In this document: positions 1,490 through 34,209 of the stretch, in pieces
How the letters are laid out: every line of letters starts with the position of its first letter
Numbering within the stretch: position 1 is the stretch's first letter
From: Microbispora amethystogenes
GTDB lineage: Bacteria > Actinomycetota > Actinomycetes > Streptosporangiales > Streptosporangiaceae
Length of the DNA stretch: 64,000 nucleotides
Assembly: GCF_016863015.1 (NCBI RefSeq)
Contig: NZ_BOOB01000002.1
Coordinates: 1-64,000 of the forward strand
Direction of reading: 5' to 3'
The notes under the pieces: model-generated
Told to the model about the DNA's origin: nothing
The model's database searches: none
What the model saw: only the letters and a program-made list of their open reading frames with translations
Translations under genes and position numbers: made by a program

Positions 1490-2514
1490 CGGCGCCGGGC
1501 CGTCCGCGCCGGGCGCTCCTCGTCGTGTCCGTCGTGCTGCTGGTGAGCCTGATCGCCGGGCTGGCGGTCGGCGCGGCGGTCATCTCGCCCCGCGCCATCG
1601 CGCTGGCCCTGCTCGACCGGCTGCCGCTGGTGTCCCTGCACTCCGGCCTCCAGCCGAACGAGGAGGGGATCGTCTTCCAGCTCAGGGTGCCCCGGGTGCT
1701 GCTGGCCGCCGTCGTGGGCGGCCTGCTCGCCCTGGCGGGGGCGGGCTACCAGGGCGTCTTCCGCAACCCGCTGGCCGACCCGTACCTGCTCGGCGCGGCG
1801 GCCGGGGCCGGTCTCACGGTGACGCTCGTCGTGGTGTTCCTGGGCGGCGACGCGGGGGTGGCGGCCGTGCCGGTCGCCGCCTTCGCGGGGGCCGTCGGCG
1901 GGGTCGCCCTCGCGTACGCGCTGGGCCGCACGGCGGGCCGGGCCGGGGGCACCGCGACGCTCGTGCTCGCCGGGGTCGCGGTCACCTCGTTCCTCACCGC
2001 CATCCAGACCTTCGTGCAGCAGCTCAAGGTCGACGAGCTGCAGCGCATCTACTCCTGGATCCTCGGCGACGTCGGCGGCGGGTGGGAGCAGCTCCGCATG
2101 ATCGCGCCGTACGCCGTGGTGTCGACGGTGGTCATGCTGCTGCACGGGCGGCTGCTCGACGTGCTGTCGGTCGGCGACGAGGAGGCGGTCAGCCTTGGCC
2201 TGCACGCGACGCGCGTGCGGTTCGCCGTGCTGCTGGCCGCCTCGCTCGCCACCGCGTCCGCGGTGGCCGTCAGCGGGCTGATCGCCTTCGTCGGGATCGT
2301 GGTGCCGCATGTCGTGCGGCGGCTCGCCGGGTGGTCCTACCGCGTCGTGCTGCCGCTGTCGTTCCTCGGCGGGGCGGCGTTCCTCGTGCTGGCCGACACC
2401 GTCGCGCGTACGGTGCTCGCCCCGGCCGAACTGCCCATCGGGGTGGTCACCGCGTTCGTCGGGGCGCCCTTCTTCGTCGCCGTCCTGCGGATGACCCGGC
2501 GGGTGGAGACGTGA
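1486..2514 (+). CDS. btuC: Cobalamin ABC transporter permease (BtuC/FecCD family)
   Basis: Membrane permease that passes corrinoid across the cytoplasmic membrane. The 342-aa product is hydrophobic throughout, with about ten predicted helices, and has the FecCD-family hallmarks LRVPRVLLAAVVGGLLALAG, GAGYQGVFRNPLADPYLLG and, near the C-terminus, GLIAFVGIVVPHVVRRLAG. The GTG start at 1486 is the first start after an in-frame stop in the other candidate frame and is coupled to the short ORF ending at 1489. Its TGA overlaps the btuD GTG by 4 bp (GTGA), so btuC and btuD are translationally coupled. Confidence 0.92.
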   Translation: MTAPGRPRRALLVVSVVLLVSLIAGLAVGAAVISPRAIALALLDRLPLVSLHSGLQPNEEGIVFQLRVPRVLLAAVVGGLLALAGAGYQGVFRNPLADPYLLGAAAGAGLTVTLVVVFLGGDAGVAAVPVAAFAGAVGGVALAYALGRTAGRAGGTATLVLAGVAVTSFLTAIQTFVQQLKVDELQRIYSWILGDVGGGWEQLRMIAPYAVVSTVVMLLHGRLLDVLSVGDEEAVSLGLHATRVRFAVLLAASLATASAVAVSGLIAFVGIVVPHVVRRLAGWSYRVVLPLSFLGGAAFLVLADTVARTVLAPAELPIGVVTAFVGAPFFVAVLRMTRRVET

Positions 2515-3347
2515 GCGGCGACACCGCCCGCCCCGGCGCCCCGGCGGTGGAGACCCGCGGCCTGGGCGTCACGCTGGGCGGGCGGCAGGTGCTCGCGGAC
2601 GTCACCCTGTCGGCCGCGCCGGGTCAGTGGCTGGCGGTCATCGGCCCCAACGGCGCGGGCAAGTCGACGCTCCTGCGGGCCGTCGCCGGGCTGATCCCGC
2701 GCCAGGGCGAGGTGCTGGTGAACGGCGCGGCCGTGGAGGGCCTGCGCCCGCGCCGGCGGGCCCGGCTGGTCGCCTACGCCCCGCAGACCCCGGCACTGCC
2801 GCCCGACATGACCGTGTACGACTACGCGTTGCTCGGCCGCACGCCGTACATCTCCTATCTCGGCAGCGAGAGCGCCCGGGACCGCGAGGTGACGCGGTCG
2901 GTGCTGGACCGGCTCGACCTGGACGGCTTCGCGGCCCGGCCGCTCGGGCACCTGTCGGGCGGCGAGCGGCAGCGGGTGGTGCTCGCCCGCGCGCTGGTGC
3001 AGCAGGCGCCGGTGCTGCTGCTGGACGAGCCGACCACCGCCCTCGACCTGGGACACCAGCAGCAGGTGCTCGAACTCGTCGACCGGCTGCGCCTGGCAGA
3101 CCGCCTGACCGTCGTGACGACGCTGCACGACCTCAGCCTCGCGGGGCAGTACGCCGACGCGCTGGTGCTGCTCGCGGAGGGCCGCGCGGTCGCGGCGGGC
3201 CCGCCCGGGCGGGTGCTGGCCGAGCCGCTGCTGACCGAGCACTTCGGCGCCCGCGTCCGGGTGGAGCCCGGCGCCGACGGGCGGCCGGTCGTCCACCTGG
3301 TACGCCCGCCGCTGCCTGCACCGATCTCCGCGGTGGAGGAGGGGTGA
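2511..3347 (+). CDS. btuD: Cobalamin ABC transporter ATPase (BtuD-like)
   Basis: Cytoplasmic ATPase energising corrinoid import with BtuC. The 278-aa product has Walker A GPNGAGKS at residues 45-52, a Q-loop region (YAPQTPALPPDMTVYDYALLG), signature LSGGERQR, Walker B VLLLDEPTTALD and the switch histidine in TTLHDLSLA. The order matches the iron/B12 importer subfamily. The GTG start overlaps the btuC stop and its own TGA overlaps the cbiZ GTG (GTGA again), giving a chain of coupled genes btuC-btuD-cbiZ. Confidence 0.93.
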   Translation: MSGDTARPGAPAVETRGLGVTLGGRQVLADVTLSAAPGQWLAVIGPNGAGKSTLLRAVAGLIPRQGEVLVNGAAVEGLRPRRRARLVAYAPQTPALPPDMTVYDYALLGRTPYISYLGSESARDREVTRSVLDRLDLDGFAARPLGHLSGGERQRVVLARALVQQAPVLLLDEPTTALDLGHQQQVLELVDRLRLADRLTVVTTLHDLSLAGQYADALVLLAEGRAVAAGPPGRVLAEPLLTEHFGARVRVEPGADGRPVVHLVRPPLPAPISAVEEG

Positions 3348-26192: not shown

Positions 26193-29102
26193 TCAGCGCA
26201 TCCTCCGCGACGCGCGGCGGCGAGACCTCCACACGGGGAACGCCTCCCCGATCTCGCGCAGCTCGTCCTCCGCCTGACGGCACAGATGCTCGTCCCCGGA
26301 CCGCTGCCCGATGGCCAGGGCCTCCAGCGCGCAAGCCAGGGCAGGCTCAGGCGCGCGCAGCAATCGGTGAGCCCTCGCCAACATGATGAAGGCTTCGCAC
26401 TCATTCTTCACGTGGCTCAGTTCTCGGGCGTGCGACAGGGCGCGATCGAGGTGACGCTGCGCGGTGAGTGGTTCACCGCGTTCCAGGTAGATCCTGGCCA
26501 GCGTCAAGAGGCCGTCGCATTCGTGGTAGTGATCTCCCGCCGCCTCCGCAAGAGTGACGGCCTCGCCGAGAAGGGCGATGGCTGCGGACATCTCGCCCAG
26601 GCCCAGGCAGGCACTTCCCCCTGTGAGCAGCGAATGACGCTCCCCGACCTGGGAGCCGATCTCCCTCGCGATCACACGCTGTGCCTCGGTGCACTCACGT
26701 GCCTCGGCGTACCGCTCCAAATGGAGATGAACGAGGCCCAGGTTGCCCAACGCGCGCATTTCGCCGAACCGGTCTCCCTGCGCACGTCTCAGTCCTAGCT
26801 CGGCCTCCTGGTGGGGTAGCGCCTCGGCCGGTCGGTTCACTGCGATCAGGGCCCACATCAGCTGCATGTGGGCGAGAGGCAGGATCTCCTGGTCACCGAT
26901 TCGTTCACCCACTTTCAGCGCCTGCCGGCTCAGGCTGAGGTGCTCGCGAAGGTGAGTACCTCTCGTCAGCTCCCAGATGAGGGCGAACCCAACGTAGGCC
27001 CCCAGACGCGCGATCTCGTCGTCCTCGCTCGCCATCGCCTGTGAGGCGGCGGAGATGACATGTGGCAGTTCCTTGTTCAGCCAGGCTCTGGCCTCGGCGG
27101 GAGTGCCCAGCGCCAATGGACGCTGCGGCACGTCGGGCCAGGGAGAATGCACGCGGTGCGGATCGAGCAGGGTGCTGGCGTGACGTGTGGTCGCGCCATA
27201 GAAGCCGAGCGCCCGCATGAGCGCGTCCTTACGGGACTGCGGCGTGAGATGCGTGTTCGCGAGTTCGATCGTGAAGAGCCGCACGAGGTCATGCGGCTGG
27301 TATCGGCCGACTTCGCCGGTCTCCAGCAGATGCGCCCGAACCAGGCGGTCGAGGGCCCGTTCGGCGGCGTCGGCGGGTTCGCCGACGAGGGCGGCCACCA
27401 CATCGGCGGTCACGCTCGCCACGGGCAGGACGCCGAGATGACACAGCGTCCGCGCGGCCAGCCGATCGAGCGCGCCGCCACGGGCGAGCGCCTCATAGCT
27501 CAGTTCTAGACTGGAGCGAACGGCGATCTGGCCCGCCTCCAGCTCGTGCAGCGTGCGCCGCCGGTCCTCCAGCCTCCCCCCGAGGTCGCGTACGCTCCAG
27601 TCCGGCCGCTCGCCGAGCCGCGCGGCGGCCAGACGCAGGGCGAGCGGCAGCCCGCCGCACAACTCGACCAGATGGGATACGGCGGCCGGATCCGCCGAGA
27701 TCCGCTCCGCGCCGACGAGCTTCGACAGGACGGTGACCCCCTCGGACCGCCGCATCCTACGGAGGACGAGCCGGACGCAGTCGTCGGCCATGGAGAAGGA
27801 CTCCCGGCTCGTGATGAGCACGGTGTTGCCCGACGGCAGGTCCAGCAGGGAACGGACCTGCTCCGGCCCGGCCGCGTCGTCGAGCAGGATGAGGGTCCTG
27901 CGGCCGTCCAGCCGGTCGCGCAGCACCGCCGCGGCCTCGTCCTCCTCGGACGGCACGGCCTTGCCCTCCAGCCCGAGCGCACGTAGCAGCCTGCCGAGCA
28001 CACCGATCGGCTCCAGGCGTTCCACCCCGGGCGTCGCTCCCAGGAGATTCACGTAGAGCTGGCCGTCGGGGAACGCGTGGGCCGCGGTGTGTGCGGCCTG
28101 GACGGCCAAGGCGGACTTGCCCGTTCCGGGAGCACCGGTGATCGCGACCACGGCCTGCGGGACGCCGCCGTCCCACGGGGTGAGCAGCGATCGCAGGCGG
28201 ACCAGCTCCTCGACCCGGCCCACGAAGCCGGTGGCCGCGCGCGGAAGCTGACGCGGCGGACGAGGCTGCGTGCCCCCAGGGGTCGTTTCGCTCTGAGCCG
28301 GGTCAAGGGAGGGGTCGGCCCGCAGGATCAGTTCGTACCGCTCCCGCAGGGCCTCGCCGGGGTCCACACCGAGCCGCTCGGCGAGCAGCCGCTTGACGTC
28401 GAGATAGGTGTCGAGCGCGTCGGCCTGCCTGCCCGACCGGTAGAGCGCCAGCATGAGCAGGTCACGCGTCCGCTCCCGCAGGGGAGCCTCCGCGACCAGT
28501 TCGGTGAGGGTGGTCACGGCCTCCTGGTGCAGGTCCAGGTCGAGCAGCGCGCCGGCCCGGTCCTCCATCGCCGTCAGGCGCAGTTCCTCCAGCCGGACCC
28601 GCTCGGCCTCGGCGAAGGGGCCGGGGACGCCGCAGAGGGCGGGCCCCGACCAGCACTCGGTGGCGGCCTCCAACGCGCGCAGGACCCCGCGCGGATCCCC
28701 TGTGGCCTGGAGCCGCCGAGCCTCGGCCAGGTGGCGTTCGAAGTCGCCGACGTCCGCCTCAACCGTCCCGCGCTCCAGCACATAGCCCCGCGACCGGGAG
28801 ATCAGGGTGCTGTAGGGGCCGCGCCGGCCCGGCTCCGCCTCCAGCACCCGTCGCAGACCGGCGATGTAGGTGTAGATGCTCTGCTCGGCGGTGTTCGGCG
28901 GACGATCCCCCCAGAGTCCGCCGATCAGTGTGTCCTTCGTGATGATCCGCCCCGCGCGGACGGCGAGGACGCACAAGGCCGCACGCTGCAGCGGCGGCCC
29001 GAGGTCGACGGTCCGGCCCTCACGCCACGCCGCCACAGGCCCCAGAAGCTGCAGACGATAAGGTGAGTGTTGCGGCGTTCCGTGCTCTTTCGCGTTATCC
29101 AT
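26193..29102 (-). CDS. SARP-family regulator with NB-ARC ATPase and TPR domains (AfsR-like)
   Basis: Large transcriptional activator. The 969-aa product has an OmpR-type winged helix (RLQLLGPVAAW to about residue 95), a BTAD domain (to about 255), an NB-ARC/STAND ATPase with Walker A GAPGTGKSAL and Walker B LILLDDA, and a C-terminal TPR array. Start at ATG 29102 fits the domain; GTG 29132 is in frame too. SARPs usually activate secondary-metabolite genes, but no biosynthetic cluster is in this window. A pair of heptamer direct repeats with 11-bp spacing upstream (29321-29338) looks like a SARP site, so it may autoregulate. Confidence 0.9.
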   Translation of the reverse strand: MDNAKEHGTPQHSPYRLQLLGPVAAWREGRTVDLGPPLQRAALCVLAVRAGRIITKDTLIGGLWGDRPPNTAEQSIYTYIAGLRRVLEAEPGRRGPYSTLISRSRGYVLERGTVEADVGDFERHLAEARRLQATGDPRGVLRALEAATECWSGPALCGVPGPFAEAERVRLEELRLTAMEDRAGALLDLDLHQEAVTTLTELVAEAPLRERTRDLLMLALYRSGRQADALDTYLDVKRLLAERLGVDPGEALRERYELILRADPSLDPAQSETTPGGTQPRPPRQLPRAATGFVGRVEELVRLRSLLTPWDGGVPQAVVAITGAPGTGKSALAVQAAHTAAHAFPDGQLYVNLLGATPGVERLEPIGVLGRLLRALGLEGKAVPSEEDEAAAVLRDRLDGRRTLILLDDAAGPEQVRSLLDLPSGNTVLITSRESFSMADDCVRLVLRRMRRSEGVTVLSKLVGAERISADPAAVSHLVELCGGLPLALRLAAARLGERPDWSVRDLGGRLEDRRRTLHELEAGQIAVRSSLELSYEALARGGALDRLAARTLCHLGVLPVASVTADVVAALVGEPADAAERALDRLVRAHLLETGEVGRYQPHDLVRLFTIELANTHLTPQSRKDALMRALGFYGATTRHASTLLDPHRVHSPWPDVPQRPLALGTPAEARAWLNKELPHVISAASQAMASEDDEIARLGAYVGFALIWELTRGTHLREHLSLSRQALKVGERIGDQEILPLAHMQLMWALIAVNRPAEALPHQEAELGLRRAQGDRFGEMRALGNLGLVHLHLERYAEARECTEAQRVIAREIGSQVGERHSLLTGGSACLGLGEMSAAIALLGEAVTLAEAAGDHYHECDGLLTLARIYLERGEPLTAQRHLDRALSHARELSHVKNECEAFIMLARAHRLLRAPEPALACALEALAIGQRSGDEHLCRQAEDELREIGEAFPVWRSRRRASRRMR

Positions 29103-29314
29103 ACGTCGCCGGACTCCATAGGGTAACGACACAGACGCGATCTGTGGAAGCCTGTCAGGATCGTTTGAAGGCGCCGGGCGCGCGACAAGCGGTGACCGCC
29201 CTCATCGAGTCCCCCGGCGTTCCTCCAGTACTAGGTGCATTACGAAGTCATCCCCGTGTCCGCCGTACTGGCGGACCCTTGCCCCCCAGTTTGGTGGAAC
29301 TCTAAATATGCCAT

Positions 29315-29924: not shown

Positions 29925-30059
29925 TCAGCAGCACTCGCACGCTGCGGTGTATTTCGATGGCACAGGAGACGTAGCGGCACTGGCTAGCGTAGCATCGGCT
30001 CCAACGGCCAGTAGGGCCGAAATGATGACGGTAAGAACGAGTAGGGCAAGGCGGCGCAC
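29925..30059 (-). CDS. Small secreted Cys-ended peptide precursor (putative signal peptide pheromone)
   Basis: 44 codons. GTG start at 30059 with GGGAG 7 nt upstream. The product begins MRRLALLVLTVIISALLAVG, a classic Sec signal peptide, with a cleavage motif ASA or SAA at residues 26-29. The remainder, SPVPSKYTAACECC, is about 15 residues with three Cys, two of them the last two residues. A longer in-frame reading to 30149 would overlap the divergent XRE-TPR gene and lacks an RBS. The start codons of this gene and the XRE-TPR regulator are 55 bp apart, an arrangement seen in peptide-receptor signalling pairs. I recognise no family; secretion and signalling roles are inference. Confidence 0.6.
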   Translation of the reverse strand: MRRLALLVLTVIISALLAVGADATLASAATSPVPSKYTAACECC

Positions 30060-30092
30060 GGTGGATCTCCCATCAGCTCTGACTGCCGGGCC

Positions 30093-30107
30093 TACAATAT
30101 TCCAGGA
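30093..30107 (+). promoter_or_regulatory. -10-like box and RBS of the XRE-TPR gene
   Basis: TACAAT at 30093-30098 resembles a -10 element, and AGGAG at 30103-30107 sits 7 nt before the ATG at 30115. If both are used, the 5' leader is very short. No matching -35 was found. Confidence 0.4.
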
Positions 30108-30114
30108 GTTGCCA

Positions 30115-31407
30115 ATGGCCGCGCAAGATCTGGTCGGACAGCGCATCAAGGCGATTCGCCGGCAGCGGGGGCTCTCGCAAGCGCAGTTGGCACATCCTGA
30201 ACTCTCCGATAGTTACGTATCACTGATCGAAAGCGGTAAGCGCACCCCCACCCCCGCCGTTCTGGAACTGCTCGCGCAGAAGCTCGACTGCTCGCTGACC
30301 TATCTCGTCAACGGCGTCACCGCCGAGCAGATGGAGGACCTCGAGGTCGGCCTCAGCTTCGCCCGCATGGCTCTGGAGAACGGCGAGGTCGCCGAGGCCC
30401 GCCGCCGGTACGCCGAACTGCTCGCCGACGGCAACCTCCTGGGTCTCCCCTCCCTTCGGGTGGAGGCCCGCTACGGCTACGCGCTGGCCTCCGAGGCGTG
30501 CGGAGAGGTCGCCGAGGCGATCTCCGTTCTGGAGGAGCTCGGCAAGTCCGAGACCGAGGTGATCAGTCAGGAACGCAAGGTCGCCGTGGCCCTGGCGCTG
30601 TGCCGGTGCCATCGGGAGCGGGGCGACTACTCGGCCGCCGTCCAAGTCGGCGAGCACGCGCTGGAGACGATGTCCCGGTCAGGGTGGAACGACGCGTTGG
30701 TCGAGCTCGGCGCCACGCTGCTGAGCGTCTATCTGCGCCGGGGCGACATGCTGCGGGCCAGGCATTTCGCCGCTGAACTGCTGGCGGCCGCCGAGACCCT
30801 GGGCTCCCCGCGGGCCGCCGTCGCGTCCTCCTGGAACGCCGCTCTCGTCGCGGAGCAGACGGGACGCGGCGAGGAGGCTCTCTCCCTGATCGAGCGAGCG
30901 CTCGCGATCCAGTCCGAGACCGGCGAGCCGCGCAACCTGGCGCGCCTCCGGCAGGCGTACGCGAACATGGTTCTCAGGCTGCACCCCGAGGAGTCGGAGA
31001 AGGCGCGCGATCTCCTGCTGCGGGCGCAGCTGGAGATGGAGGGGGCGGCCACCAGCACCTTCGACAGAGCCCTGTGCGCGCTGGCTCTTGCCTGGGCGGA
31101 GATCGTTCTTCACTATCCCGAGAGGGCCGTCGAGTACGCCGAGGCCGCCGTCGACCTGGTGCGCGGCACCTCGGGGTGGCTGGAGACACGAGCCGCCCTC
31201 CTCCTCAGCCAGGCGCGTTTCCTGCTGCACCAGGATGACGAGGCGGCGAGCGAACTGGACACTGTGAGCGACTGGCTGGAGACCGCGCTGCCCACACGGA
31301 AGACGGCCGAGGACTGGATGACCATCGGCGAGATGCGTCGGCGGATCGGTGACGAACAGCAGAGCGTGGCCGCCTACCAGCGGGCCCTCGCCTGCGCCGG
31401 GCTGTGA
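30115..31407 (+). CDS. XRE-family regulator with C-terminal TPR sensor domain
   Basis: 430-aa regulator: an XRE helix-turn-helix at residues 5-65 (IKAIRRQRGLSQAQLAHPEL, YVSLIESGKRTPTPAVLELL) followed by about 360 residues of TPR helices (for example ARMALENGEVAEARRRYAEL, ALSLIERALAIQSETGEPRN). HTH plus TPR is the architecture of peptide-binding quorum-sensing receptors of the RRNPP type, though these are known mainly from Firmicutes. ATG 30115 with AGGAG 7 nt upstream. Divergent from a 44-aa secreted peptide gene. It may bind the peptide through the TPR domain (inference). Followed by two strong hairpins. Confidence 0.9.
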   Translation: MAAQDLVGQRIKAIRRQRGLSQAQLAHPELSDSYVSLIESGKRTPTPAVLELLAQKLDCSLTYLVNGVTAEQMEDLEVGLSFARMALENGEVAEARRRYAELLADGNLLGLPSLRVEARYGYALASEACGEVAEAISVLEELGKSETEVISQERKVAVALALCRCHRERGDYSAAVQVGEHALETMSRSGWNDALVELGATLLSVYLRRGDMLRARHFAAELLAAAETLGSPRAAVASSWNAALVAEQTGRGEEALSLIERALAIQSETGEPRNLARLRQAYANMVLRLHPEESEKARDLLLRAQLEMEGAATSTFDRALCALALAWAEIVLHYPERAVEYAEAAVDLVRGTSGWLETRAALLLSQARFLLHQDDEAASELDTVSDWLETALPTRKTAEDWMTIGEMRRRIGDEQQSVAAYQRALACAGL

Positions 31408-31609: not shown

Positions 31610-32218
31610 ATGAAGAGACCCATCCTCGCCGCCTTCGCCGGCCTCGCCGCGTTCCTGGTGGCGCTCCTGCTGTGCGCGGCCCCGGTCCTGCCGGCCCAGG
31701 CGCACACCTCGCTCAAGAGCAGCGACCCGCAGAAGAACGCCAAGGTCACGACCTTGACCAAGGTCACCCTGGAGTTCGCGGAGTCCGTGCGCTTCCCGGT
31801 CGTGGTCGTCCGCGGTGAGGACGGCAAGCGCTACGAGAAGGGCGCTCCGGCCGTCAACGGCCCCAAGGTCACCGAGGCGGTGGCCGACCAGGTGCCGCCG
31901 GGCCGGTACACGATCGCCTGGCGGGTGGTCTCTCCGGACGGTCACCCGCTGGAGGGGGAGATCCCCTTCACCGTGGTGGGCGACCAGGCGCTGGGCAGCG
32001 CGACCTCCGTGGCCGAGCCTCAGGACACTGCCTCCGCGGCCGCCGCCGTGCCCGGCGCGTCGTCCGCCGCCGCATCGGACGCCACGTCCGACCTGGCACA
32101 GGCCTCCCACACGGCCGACGACCAGGGGGGCGGCGTGCCCGGCTGGTTCTGGGCCGTGGTCTTCGGCATCGCCGGGATCGGCATCGGCATGTTCCTGAGC
32201 CTGCGGAAGAAGCCGTGA
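31610..32218 (+). CDS. copC: Copper-binding protein CopC
   Basis: 202-aa extracytoplasmic copper-binding protein. After a signal peptide ending AQA, the mature protein begins HTSLKSSDP, with the N-terminal His of the Cu(II) site. A second ligand region is DGHPLEGEIPFTV. An Ala/Ser/Asp-rich linker leads to a C-terminal transmembrane helix (WFWAVVFGIAGIGIGMF) and basic tail, so it stays membrane-bound. Coupled by a 4-bp overlap (GTGA) to the copD-ctaG gene, which should receive or handle the copper. Confidence 0.92.
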   Translation: MKRPILAAFAGLAAFLVALLLCAAPVLPAQAHTSLKSSDPQKNAKVTTLTKVTLEFAESVRFPVVVVRGEDGKRYEKGAPAVNGPKVTEAVADQVPPGRYTIAWRVVSPDGHPLEGEIPFTVVGDQALGSATSVAEPQDTASAAAAVPGASSAAASDATSDLAQASHTADDQGGGVPGWFWAVVFGIAGIGIGMFLSLRKKP

Positions 32219-34209
32219 GCAGGGTCGCGCGCCTGACCGTCGCGGCGCTGTGCGCGGCGGCGGGCGCGCTCGTGGTCGCGATGGTGGTCGGCGGCGCCGC
32301 GACCCCGCGGATCATCCCCGGCCTGCCCGACGAGGGCACGCTGACGCGCTGGATGCTTCCGCTGTCGAAGCTCGCGATGGACGTCTCCGGCGTCGTGACC
32401 GTGGGACTGCTGGCCGTGGCCGCGGCCTTCCTGCCCAGCGACAAGGGGTTGCTCGGCAGGCAGGCCCAGAGCTACGTGAAGGGCGCCTCGTGGTCCGCGC
32501 TGGCCTGGGCGGTCGCCGCGGCGGTGGCGCTGGTCTTCAGCCTGTCGGAGACCCTCGGCGCGCCGGTGGGGGAGATCCTCGCCGGCAACGAGCTCACCAG
32601 CTACGCCAGTCAGGTGCCGCAGGGCATCGCGCTGACCCTGGTCGTGCTGTTCGCCGTCGCCATCGCGTTGTTCGCGCGGGGCGCGATCACCGCGGGCGCC
32701 GCCGCCGGGTTGCTGGTCTTCGCGCTGGTCACGCTCCTGCCGCCCGCGCTCACCGGGCACTCCTCCTCCGCGCCCAACCACGGCCTGGCCACCACCTCCG
32801 TCGGCATGCACCTGCTCTTCCTCGCGCTGTGGGTCGGGGGCCTCGCTGCGCTCTGCTTCCACGCGCTGCGCGGGCAGGCGCAGATCGACGTCGCCGCCAC
32901 GCGCTTCTCGCGGATGGCGCTGTGGTGCTTCATCGGGGTCGGCGTCTCCGGCGTCGCCGCCGGCGCCTCGCGCCTGGCCACGATCGGTGACCTGTTCACC
33001 TCCACCTACGGCCTGCTCCTGCTCGTCAAGGTCGCCGCCTTCGCCGCGCTCGGGTTCCTGGGATGGCGCCACCGGGGCGGCACGCTGCCGAGGCTGTCGG
33101 CGGGAGAGCCGCACGCGTTCCTGCGCCTGGCCCTCGGCGAGATCGTGCTCATGGGAGCGACGATGGGGGTCGGCGTGGCGCTCTCCCGGACCGCCCCGCC
33201 GCCCGTCAGGACGCCGATCGACCGCGCGTTCGAGCTTCTCGGCTACCTGATCCCGCCTCCGCTGTCGCTCGCGAACCTGCTCACGCTGTGGTGGTTCGAC
33301 CTGTTCTTCGCCGTGCTCGCCGCGGTCCTGGCCGGTCTGTACGGCGCGGGGGTCATGCGGCTGGCCCGGCGGGGTGACAAGTGGCCGGTGGGCCGCACCG
33401 TGAGCTGGTACCTCGGCGTCGTCATCCTGGTGCTCAGCACCCAGAGCGGCATCGCGCGCTACGCGCCCGTGCTGTTCAGCGTGCACATGACCGAGCACAT
33501 GATCCTGTCGATGCTGGTCCCGATCTTCTTCGTGCTCGGCGCGCCGGTGACGCTGGCGCTGCGCGCGCTCAAGCCCGCCGTACGGCGCGGTGACCGCGGG
33601 CCCCGCGAGTGGATCACGGTGATCCTGCACAGCAGGGTGATGAAGTTCGTCAGCCACCCCGCGATCGCGACGGCGATCTTCGTGGTGTCGACGTTCGCGC
33701 TCTACTTCACCCCGCTGTTCGCCGCCGCGATGGAGGAGCACCTCGGGCACATCGCGATGACGACCCACTTCCTGCTGAGCGGCTCCCTGTTCTTCTGGGT
33801 GATCATCGGTGTGGACCCGGCGCCGCACAAGCTGCCGCACGCCGGGCGGCTGCTGCTGCTCATGGTGACCATGCCGTTCCACGCGTTCTTCGGCATCGCC
33901 CTGATGAGCATGGGCACGGTGCTGGCCGGCGCGTACTACGACCAGCTCGGGCGCACCTGGGGCGCCTCGTCCCTGGCCGACCAGCAGACCGGAGGCGGCA
34001 TCGCGTGGGGCTTCGGCGAGATCCCCACCCTGATCGTGCTGCTCGCGCTGGGCTTCCAGTGGTGGCGCGCCGACGAGCGCGTCGCCCGCCGGGCCGACCG
34101 CCGGGCCGACGCCGCCGCGGCGAAGCCGGGCGGCGGTACTGGAGACGCCGAGCTGGACGCCTACAACGACTATCTGTCCAAGCTGAACCGGCGCGACCGG
34201 TCCCGCTGA
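32215..34209 (+). CDS. CopD - CtaG fusion membrane protein
   Basis: 664 aa, multi-pass. The N-terminal half (about 1-320) is CopD-like, a copper-transport membrane protein, with conserved histidines such as TGHSSSAPNHGLATTSVGMH. The C-terminal half is the caa3_CtaG family (VHMTEHMILSMLVPIFFVLGAP, GHIAMTTHFLLSGSLFFWVIIG, MPFHAFFGIALMS), associated with cytochrome oxidase copper assembly. GTG start overlaps the copC stop. The fusion fits copper delivery to a respiratory oxidase. Such CopD-CtaG proteins are common in actinobacteria. Ends 43 bp before the convergent map gene. Confidence 0.92.
   Translation: MSRVARLTVAALCAAAGALVVAMVVGGAATPRIIPGLPDEGTLTRWMLPLSKLAMDVSGVVTVGLLAVAAAFLPSDKGLLGRQAQSYVKGASWSALAWAVAAAVALVFSLSETLGAPVGEILAGNELTSYASQVPQGIALTLVVLFAVAIALFARGAITAGAAAGLLVFALVTLLPPALTGHSSSAPNHGLATTSVGMHLLFLALWVGGLAALCFHALRGQAQIDVAATRFSRMALWCFIGVGVSGVAAGASRLATIGDLFTSTYGLLLLVKVAAFAALGFLGWRHRGGTLPRLSAGEPHAFLRLALGEIVLMGATMGVGVALSRTAPPPVRTPIDRAFELLGYLIPPPLSLANLLTLWWFDLFFAVLAAVLAGLYGAGVMRLARRGDKWPVGRTVSWYLGVVILVLSTQSGIARYAPVLFSVHMTEHMILSMLVPIFFVLGAPVTLALRALKPAVRRGDRGPREWITVILHSRVMKFVSHPAIATAIFVVSTFALYFTPLFAAAMEEHLGHIAMTTHFLLSGSLFFWVIIGVDPAPHKLPHAGRLLLLMVTMPFHAFFGIALMSMGTVLAGAYYDQLGRTWGASSLADQQTGGGIAWGFGEIPTLIVLLALGFQWWRADERVARRADRRADAAAAKPGGGTGDAELDAYNDYLSKLNRRDRSR

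Follow-up and report, generated by a model that had tools for sequence, protein, structure and literature searches.

The window, a 64,000-nt stretch of DNA from a Microbispora amethystogenes contig (NZ_BOOB01000002.1), contains two divergently transcribed genes (Table 1). One encodes a 44-aa propeptide whose C-terminal stretch is SPVPSKYTAACECC, and the other a 430-aa regulator. The first-pass annotation had placed their start codons 55 bp apart and given the short ORF a ribosome-binding site of its own; both statements hold in the window, where the GTG start is preceded by GGGAG, and an SD-like motif lies 5′ of the mini-ORF start in all 82 relatives examined. The propeptide is predicted to be secreted on the basis of an Arg-rich N-terminus, a hydrophobic stretch and an AxA motif, all conserved in relatives. 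At 44 aa (approximately 40–70 aa in relatives), it lies within the 10–100 aa size range of RRNPPA propeptides. No model for the peptide was found in the protein-family libraries searched, though one propeptide relative gave a weak match to Phr_nterm (E 0.0058), and no second propeptide copy was detected at a significant score in the same genome.

Table 1. Features of the propeptide-receptor locus (positions in the window)
Feature	Position	Strand	Comment
Propeptide gene, 44 aa, VRRLALLVLTVIISALLAVGADATLASAATSPVPSKYTAACECC	29925..30059	-	GTG start at 30059; stop ends 29925; product ends Cys-Cys
Signal peptide, residues 1-28, VRRLALLVLTVIISALLAVGADATLASA	29976..30059	-	Conserved in Streptosporangiaceae; putative cleavage site, from AxA
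Start and hypervariable core of predicted mature peptide, ATSPVPSKYTAACE	29934..29975	-	Core is residues 33-42
Terminal Cys-Cys codons	29928..29933	-	Cys-Cys in 72/82 close homologues and in distant families
Propeptide Shine-Dalgarno GGGAG	30067..30071	-	5′ of GTG
Probable receptor promoter inside propeptide ORF	29966..29995	+	-35-like GAGACG 29966-29971, 18-bp spacer, -10-like TAGCAT 29990-29995; putative
Receptor/regulator gene, 430 aa, HTH and nine TPRs	30115..31407	+	ATG 30115; last sense codon ends 31404; stop 31405-31407
HTH DNA-binding domain, residues 1-68	30115..30318	+	Zero amino-acid changes among seven Microbispora
Part of TPR array, residues 196-274, with T201, A237, W240, N241, N274	30700..30936	+	Proposed holder of the peptide C-terminus
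Receptor Shine-Dalgarno AGGAG	30104..30108	+	

The regulator had been described from its sequence as an HTH and TPR protein, and both Pfam HTH_3 and TPR_12 score above their cut-offs. An AlphaFold2 model built from 64 sequences (pLDDT 90.5) shows the HTH followed by nine TPR helix pairs. In structure comparison, NprR was the top bacterial quorum sensor (Z 25.4 over 347 residues), with a Rap-peptide complex next among bacterial quorum sensors (Z 24.1); the structural alignments to Rap and NprR have about 11–14% identity. Foldseek matched PlcR-PapR7-DNA at E 4.3e-7, and the sequence profile of the regulator matches PlcR across both HTH and TPR (E 1.1e-7). Eukaryotic TPR proteins score equally high against the model, TPR superhelices resembling one another, so the fold match supports an RRNPPA class assignment but does not prove it and is weak when taken alone. 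For the named RRNPPA subfamilies (Rgg, Rap, PlcR, ComR etc.), no NCBIfam or Pfam model exceeded its cut-off with the regulator, and PADLOC matched it at the HTH level only. The length of the protein and its TPRs fall within the 250–500-aa TPR receptor description of RRNPPA, and the short distance between the two start codons corresponds to the adjacency of propeptide and receptor in that family. Model and profile likewise agree with an HTH followed by five or nine TPRs, a TPR fold that unrelated proteins share.

A scan of GTDB genomes yielded 80 loci with 82 homologous regulators, almost all of the loci belonging to named Streptosporangiaceae of many genera. A divergent mini-ORF, in which a conserved signal peptide is followed by a hypervariable core, adjoins 81 of them; the one exception, in L130, stands second in a tandem of two regulators and has no mini-ORF of its own. 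The first-pass annotation would have given up its proposal had the small ORF not been conserved beside homologous regulators, and it is conserved, in these close homologues and in many distant ones. At 72 of the 82 regulators the mini-ORF ends exactly in Cys-Cys (CC), and nine mini-ORFs with a similar signal peptide (Streptosporangium, Planomonospora and Planobispora) end in a Trp/Pro motif (such as WNHPD, WSYPD or WVYPG). The start codons lie 47–62 bp apart across relatives. When one rule was applied to both strands of the 80 loci (1.14 Mb), hydrophobic short ORFs ending in CC turned up 62 times at the divergent site and once elsewhere; the count is lower than 72 because this rule is stricter than the one behind the larger number. 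The co-occurrence of the CC-ending mini-ORF with the regulator therefore exceeds chance.

In L042, a secreted mini-ORF between two receptor copies (2362-2545, minus strand) ends in GLCCYE, that is, CC plus two residues, and one of the two receptor copies has lost the signature residues described below. A paralogous XRE-TPR regulator with 32% identity (L002, G000:C26:37743-39014) has no recognizable propeptide and belongs to a clade conserved across the family.

Beyond the Streptosporangiaceae, a search of 297 genomes of the class found regulators approximately 30% identical in further families, from which 34 loci were fetched. Of these, 24 have a CC-ending secreted mini-ORF alongside the regulator, and contig ends cut 2 of the remainder; such cassettes occur in seven families besides that of the window. 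Most are divergent, four are convergent (L141, L149, L156, L162) and one is co-directional (L147). Because all three orientations occur, the mini-ORF is linked to its partner gene and not to a DNA element. Streptomyces plasmids (L176, L180) also carry a related regulator, with the CC-ending secreted ORF downstream, and some homologous regulator clades are without an adjacent peptide. The two-gene unit is real and widespread.

On three Streptomyces plasmids, L176 (4036-4543), L190 and L191, two consecutive small secreted ORFs lie downstream of the regulator: one ends in IPLCC, and the other in DPREKM (L176 and L190) or a different sequence (L191). Carriage by phages was considered and set aside, as viral_contigs held no viral relative; one scaffold with an unverified phage label has a receptor-like fragment, beside which no CC ORF was detected.

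Within the propeptide, signal peptide, core and terminus evolve differently. Seven Microbispora peptides, all 44 aa long and aligned without gaps, have a pN/pS of 0.48 in the signal peptide and 1.43 in the core (residues 33–42), and their two terminal Cys codons never change. The three-Cys tail proposed at first reading is present in the window, where the terminal pair is the conserved part and the third Cys (position 41) is specific to the strain. The receptor HTH is unchanged in amino acids at a pS of 0.31, and pN/pS is 0.27 in the TPR part. The receptor of the window shares 94.9% identity with that of L006, whereas the two peptide cores match at 0 of 10 positions. Such a combination of diversifying core and unchanging end typically marks a signal that carries specificity and has a fixed anchor.

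Positions in the receptor change along with the peptide end. On a tree of 142 receptors, those with Trp/Pro peptides form one clade nested among CC-type receptors, and the positions separating this clade include E197, T201, A237, N241, N274 and A319. Four of these, T201, A237, N241 and N274, follow the C-terminus of the peptide. CC-type receptors, 75 near and 33 far, conserve them (at 94, 79, 88 and 67%, respectively, in the distant ones), receptors without a peptide show them relaxed to 44, 22, 44 and 25%, and the nine Trp/Pro-type receptors have replaced them (T201 in 7 of 9). Of the 175 positions that are conserved, 12 are specific to the CC type and another set of 12 is switched in the Trp/Pro clade, with 4 belonging to both sets (Fisher p = 0.005), a value that overstates independence because the Trp/Pro covariation is that of a single clade and essentially one evolutionary event. 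Counted by hand from G210 and G250, residues 197/201 and 237/241 occupy positions 2 and 6 in the first helices of TPR4 and TPR5, and in other TPR proteins these positions face the ligand. The pattern points to a propeptide and receptor that evolve together like a chemical message and its receptor.

We consider it likely that the two genes form a cassette of peptide pheromone and receptor, operating in the manner of RRNPPA quorum sensing in Bacillota; this reading is based on the anatomy of the unit and on covariation, and makes it a candidate member in the strict sense. The resemblance to RRNPP peptide-receptor systems raised by the first-pass annotation is supported by the hypervariable core, the invariant end, the covariation and the RRNPP-type fold of the model. 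In the mechanism we propose, the propeptide would be made from its own short gene, as the conserved ORF, SD and codon-level selection suggest, and would be exported by Sec and cleaved after AxA. Proteases may then shorten it to its C-terminal part, the variable core with Cys-Cys, and an oligopeptide ABC permease would re-import the product. Import is possible given the 13 oligopeptide-type (SBP_bac_5) binding proteins in the genome, which indicate capacity only. Inside the cell, the Cys-Cys end is predicted from the covariation to dock in the TPR superhelical groove, close to T201/A237/N241/N274, with the peptide core conferring strain specificity. By analogy with RRNPPA, binding would alter how strongly the invariant HTH holds DNA and so switch the cassette itself and other genes.

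A small, Cys-containing peptide that is predicted to be secreted and has a diversifying core could also be an effector, bacteriocin-like or otherwise directed at competitors, with hypervariability as the mark of an arms race and the XRE-TPR protein merely controlling its gene. We regard this as improbable: genes for immunity, modification or dedicated export were not seen conserved beside the cassette, the orientation of peptide and regulator varies, and receptor groove residues change with the peptide end, which a mere regulator would not need. An action of the peptide on the regulator that involves no communication between cells is similarly improbable; examples would be a membrane microprotein that stays uncleaved, or a monitor of how much the producing cell can secrete. 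Receptor-peptide covariation would look identical in that case, but the Arg-rich N-terminus places the tail on the outer side of the membrane, and between closely related species AxA is kept and the core diversifies, the pattern that a strain-specific signal would show.

The neighbouring genes raise another possibility, a copper- or thiol-handling unit in which Cu(I) is bound by the Cys-Cys peptide and the adjacent copC-copD/ctaG are under the control of the regulator. CopC and CopD/CtaG are encoded directly downstream of the receptor (31610-34209, plus strand, in the window) in 77–78 of the 80 Streptosporangiaceae loci. However, the same genes adjoin the nine Trp/Pro-ending peptides, which lack Cys, none was seen beside the distant CC cassettes in the stretches examined, and the core between signal peptide and CC diversifies. 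We therefore rejected copper binding, which is very unlikely given that Cys is not indispensable and the copper genes are not linked throughout; their position looks like a reflection of family synteny. On the other side of the peptide gene lies an AfsR/SARP-type BTAD-NB-ARC-TPR regulator (26193-29132, minus strand), similar to a gene found in 25 of the 80 loci; a BTAD regulator also adjoins the Streptomyces plasmid cassettes.

The propeptide ORF overlaps a second conserved feature. A CGTANCAT(T) element at 29988-29996 on the plus strand, about 118–128 bp upstream of the receptor start, is fixed at the nucleotide level in 77 of 82 loci, and a conserved GAC sits about 18 bp upstream of it. The rare Asn codon AAT accompanies CGTANCAT in 70 of 71 cases, while receptor genes use AAC in 93%. 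The element is probably the receptor promoter, to judge from this conservation, and would give overlapping divergent transcripts; a scan for consensus promoters listed nothing, the CGTANCAT element included, and a dyad search of about 80 intergenic regions found no convincing palindrome that could serve as an operator. Because CGTANCAT is fixed in DNA, the conserved N-x-T and part of S-S in the peptide may reflect DNA constraint. That the mini-ORF is no gene at all and owes its conservation entirely to this embedded promoter is scarcely credible, despite the overlap with a nucleotide-conserved element, since CGTANCAT covers the N-x-T codons only, and cassettes of distant families and other orientations that lack it still have the SD, the signal peptide and the terminal CC.

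The pheromone cassette we propose can be set beside known systems. Members of RRNPPA (Rgg, Rap, NprR, PrgX, PlcR, AimR and kin) likewise pair a small Sec-secreted propeptide with an adjacent TPR receptor of 250–500 aa, often with an N-terminal HTH, and part of them share the HTH and nine-TPR architecture of the regulator. The cassette differs from them in its Actinomycetota host, its Cys-Cys end (a Trp/Pro motif in one clade), its strongly conserved signal peptide and its usually divergent genes with starts about 55 bp apart. NprR of the Bacillus cereus group, the best bacterial match over the full TPR structure, also combines an HTH with TPRs; its partner NprX is not known to end in CC, and the NprR-NprX pair differs in gene order and phylum. 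ComR of streptococci has five TPRs. A doubled aromatic residue, WW, is the class signature of its type II XIP peptides, comparable to CC here, the peptide C-terminus is buried in the TPR pocket, and an Asn on a TPR helix contacts the peptide backbone (PMC5131891). The BldK permease pathway of Streptomyces provides an actinobacterial case in which an extracellular oligopeptide signal is imported by an ABC permease; the part of that account consulted names neither an intracellular TPR receptor nor a CC propeptide (PMC11303876).

An HTH with nine TPRs is a recognized RRNPPA architecture, and the structural phylogeny of the family covers Bacillota (PMC12700828). RRNPP_detector, which looks for a small secreted propeptide adjacent to a 250–500-aa TPR receptor, was applied to Firmicutes and viruses alone (PMC10075063). 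The cassette has this form, with secretion judged from sequence features. In the papers searched, RRNPPA is reported only from Bacillota, cytoplasmic receptors for peptide pheromones being treated as a speciality of that phylum, and a search that left out preprints and most subscription journals returned no paper on an actinobacterial pair of this kind. New in the cassette are the phylum, the Cys-Cys anchor and the divergent arrangement.

More tentatively, the cassettes could represent a pheromone family that spans the actinobacterial class and has a signal chemistry dependent on the vicinal Cys-Cys end; we think this possible but less likely than not. One possible example is redox gating, in which a disulphide would close the peptide outside the cell and be reduced inside it, making recognition depend on redox state. 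If true, such chemistry would set these pheromones apart from the RRNPPA peptides known so far.

Antibiotics come mainly from actinomycetes, whose signalling is believed to rely mostly on small molecules, gamma-butyrolactones among them. The cassette points to a peptide 'language' in bacteria where such a kind was not known. The receptor-peptide covariation set is one from which a recognition code could be read, and a chromosomally conserved cassette with species-specific peptides would offer defined, synthesizable molecules for testing control of development or silent metabolism.
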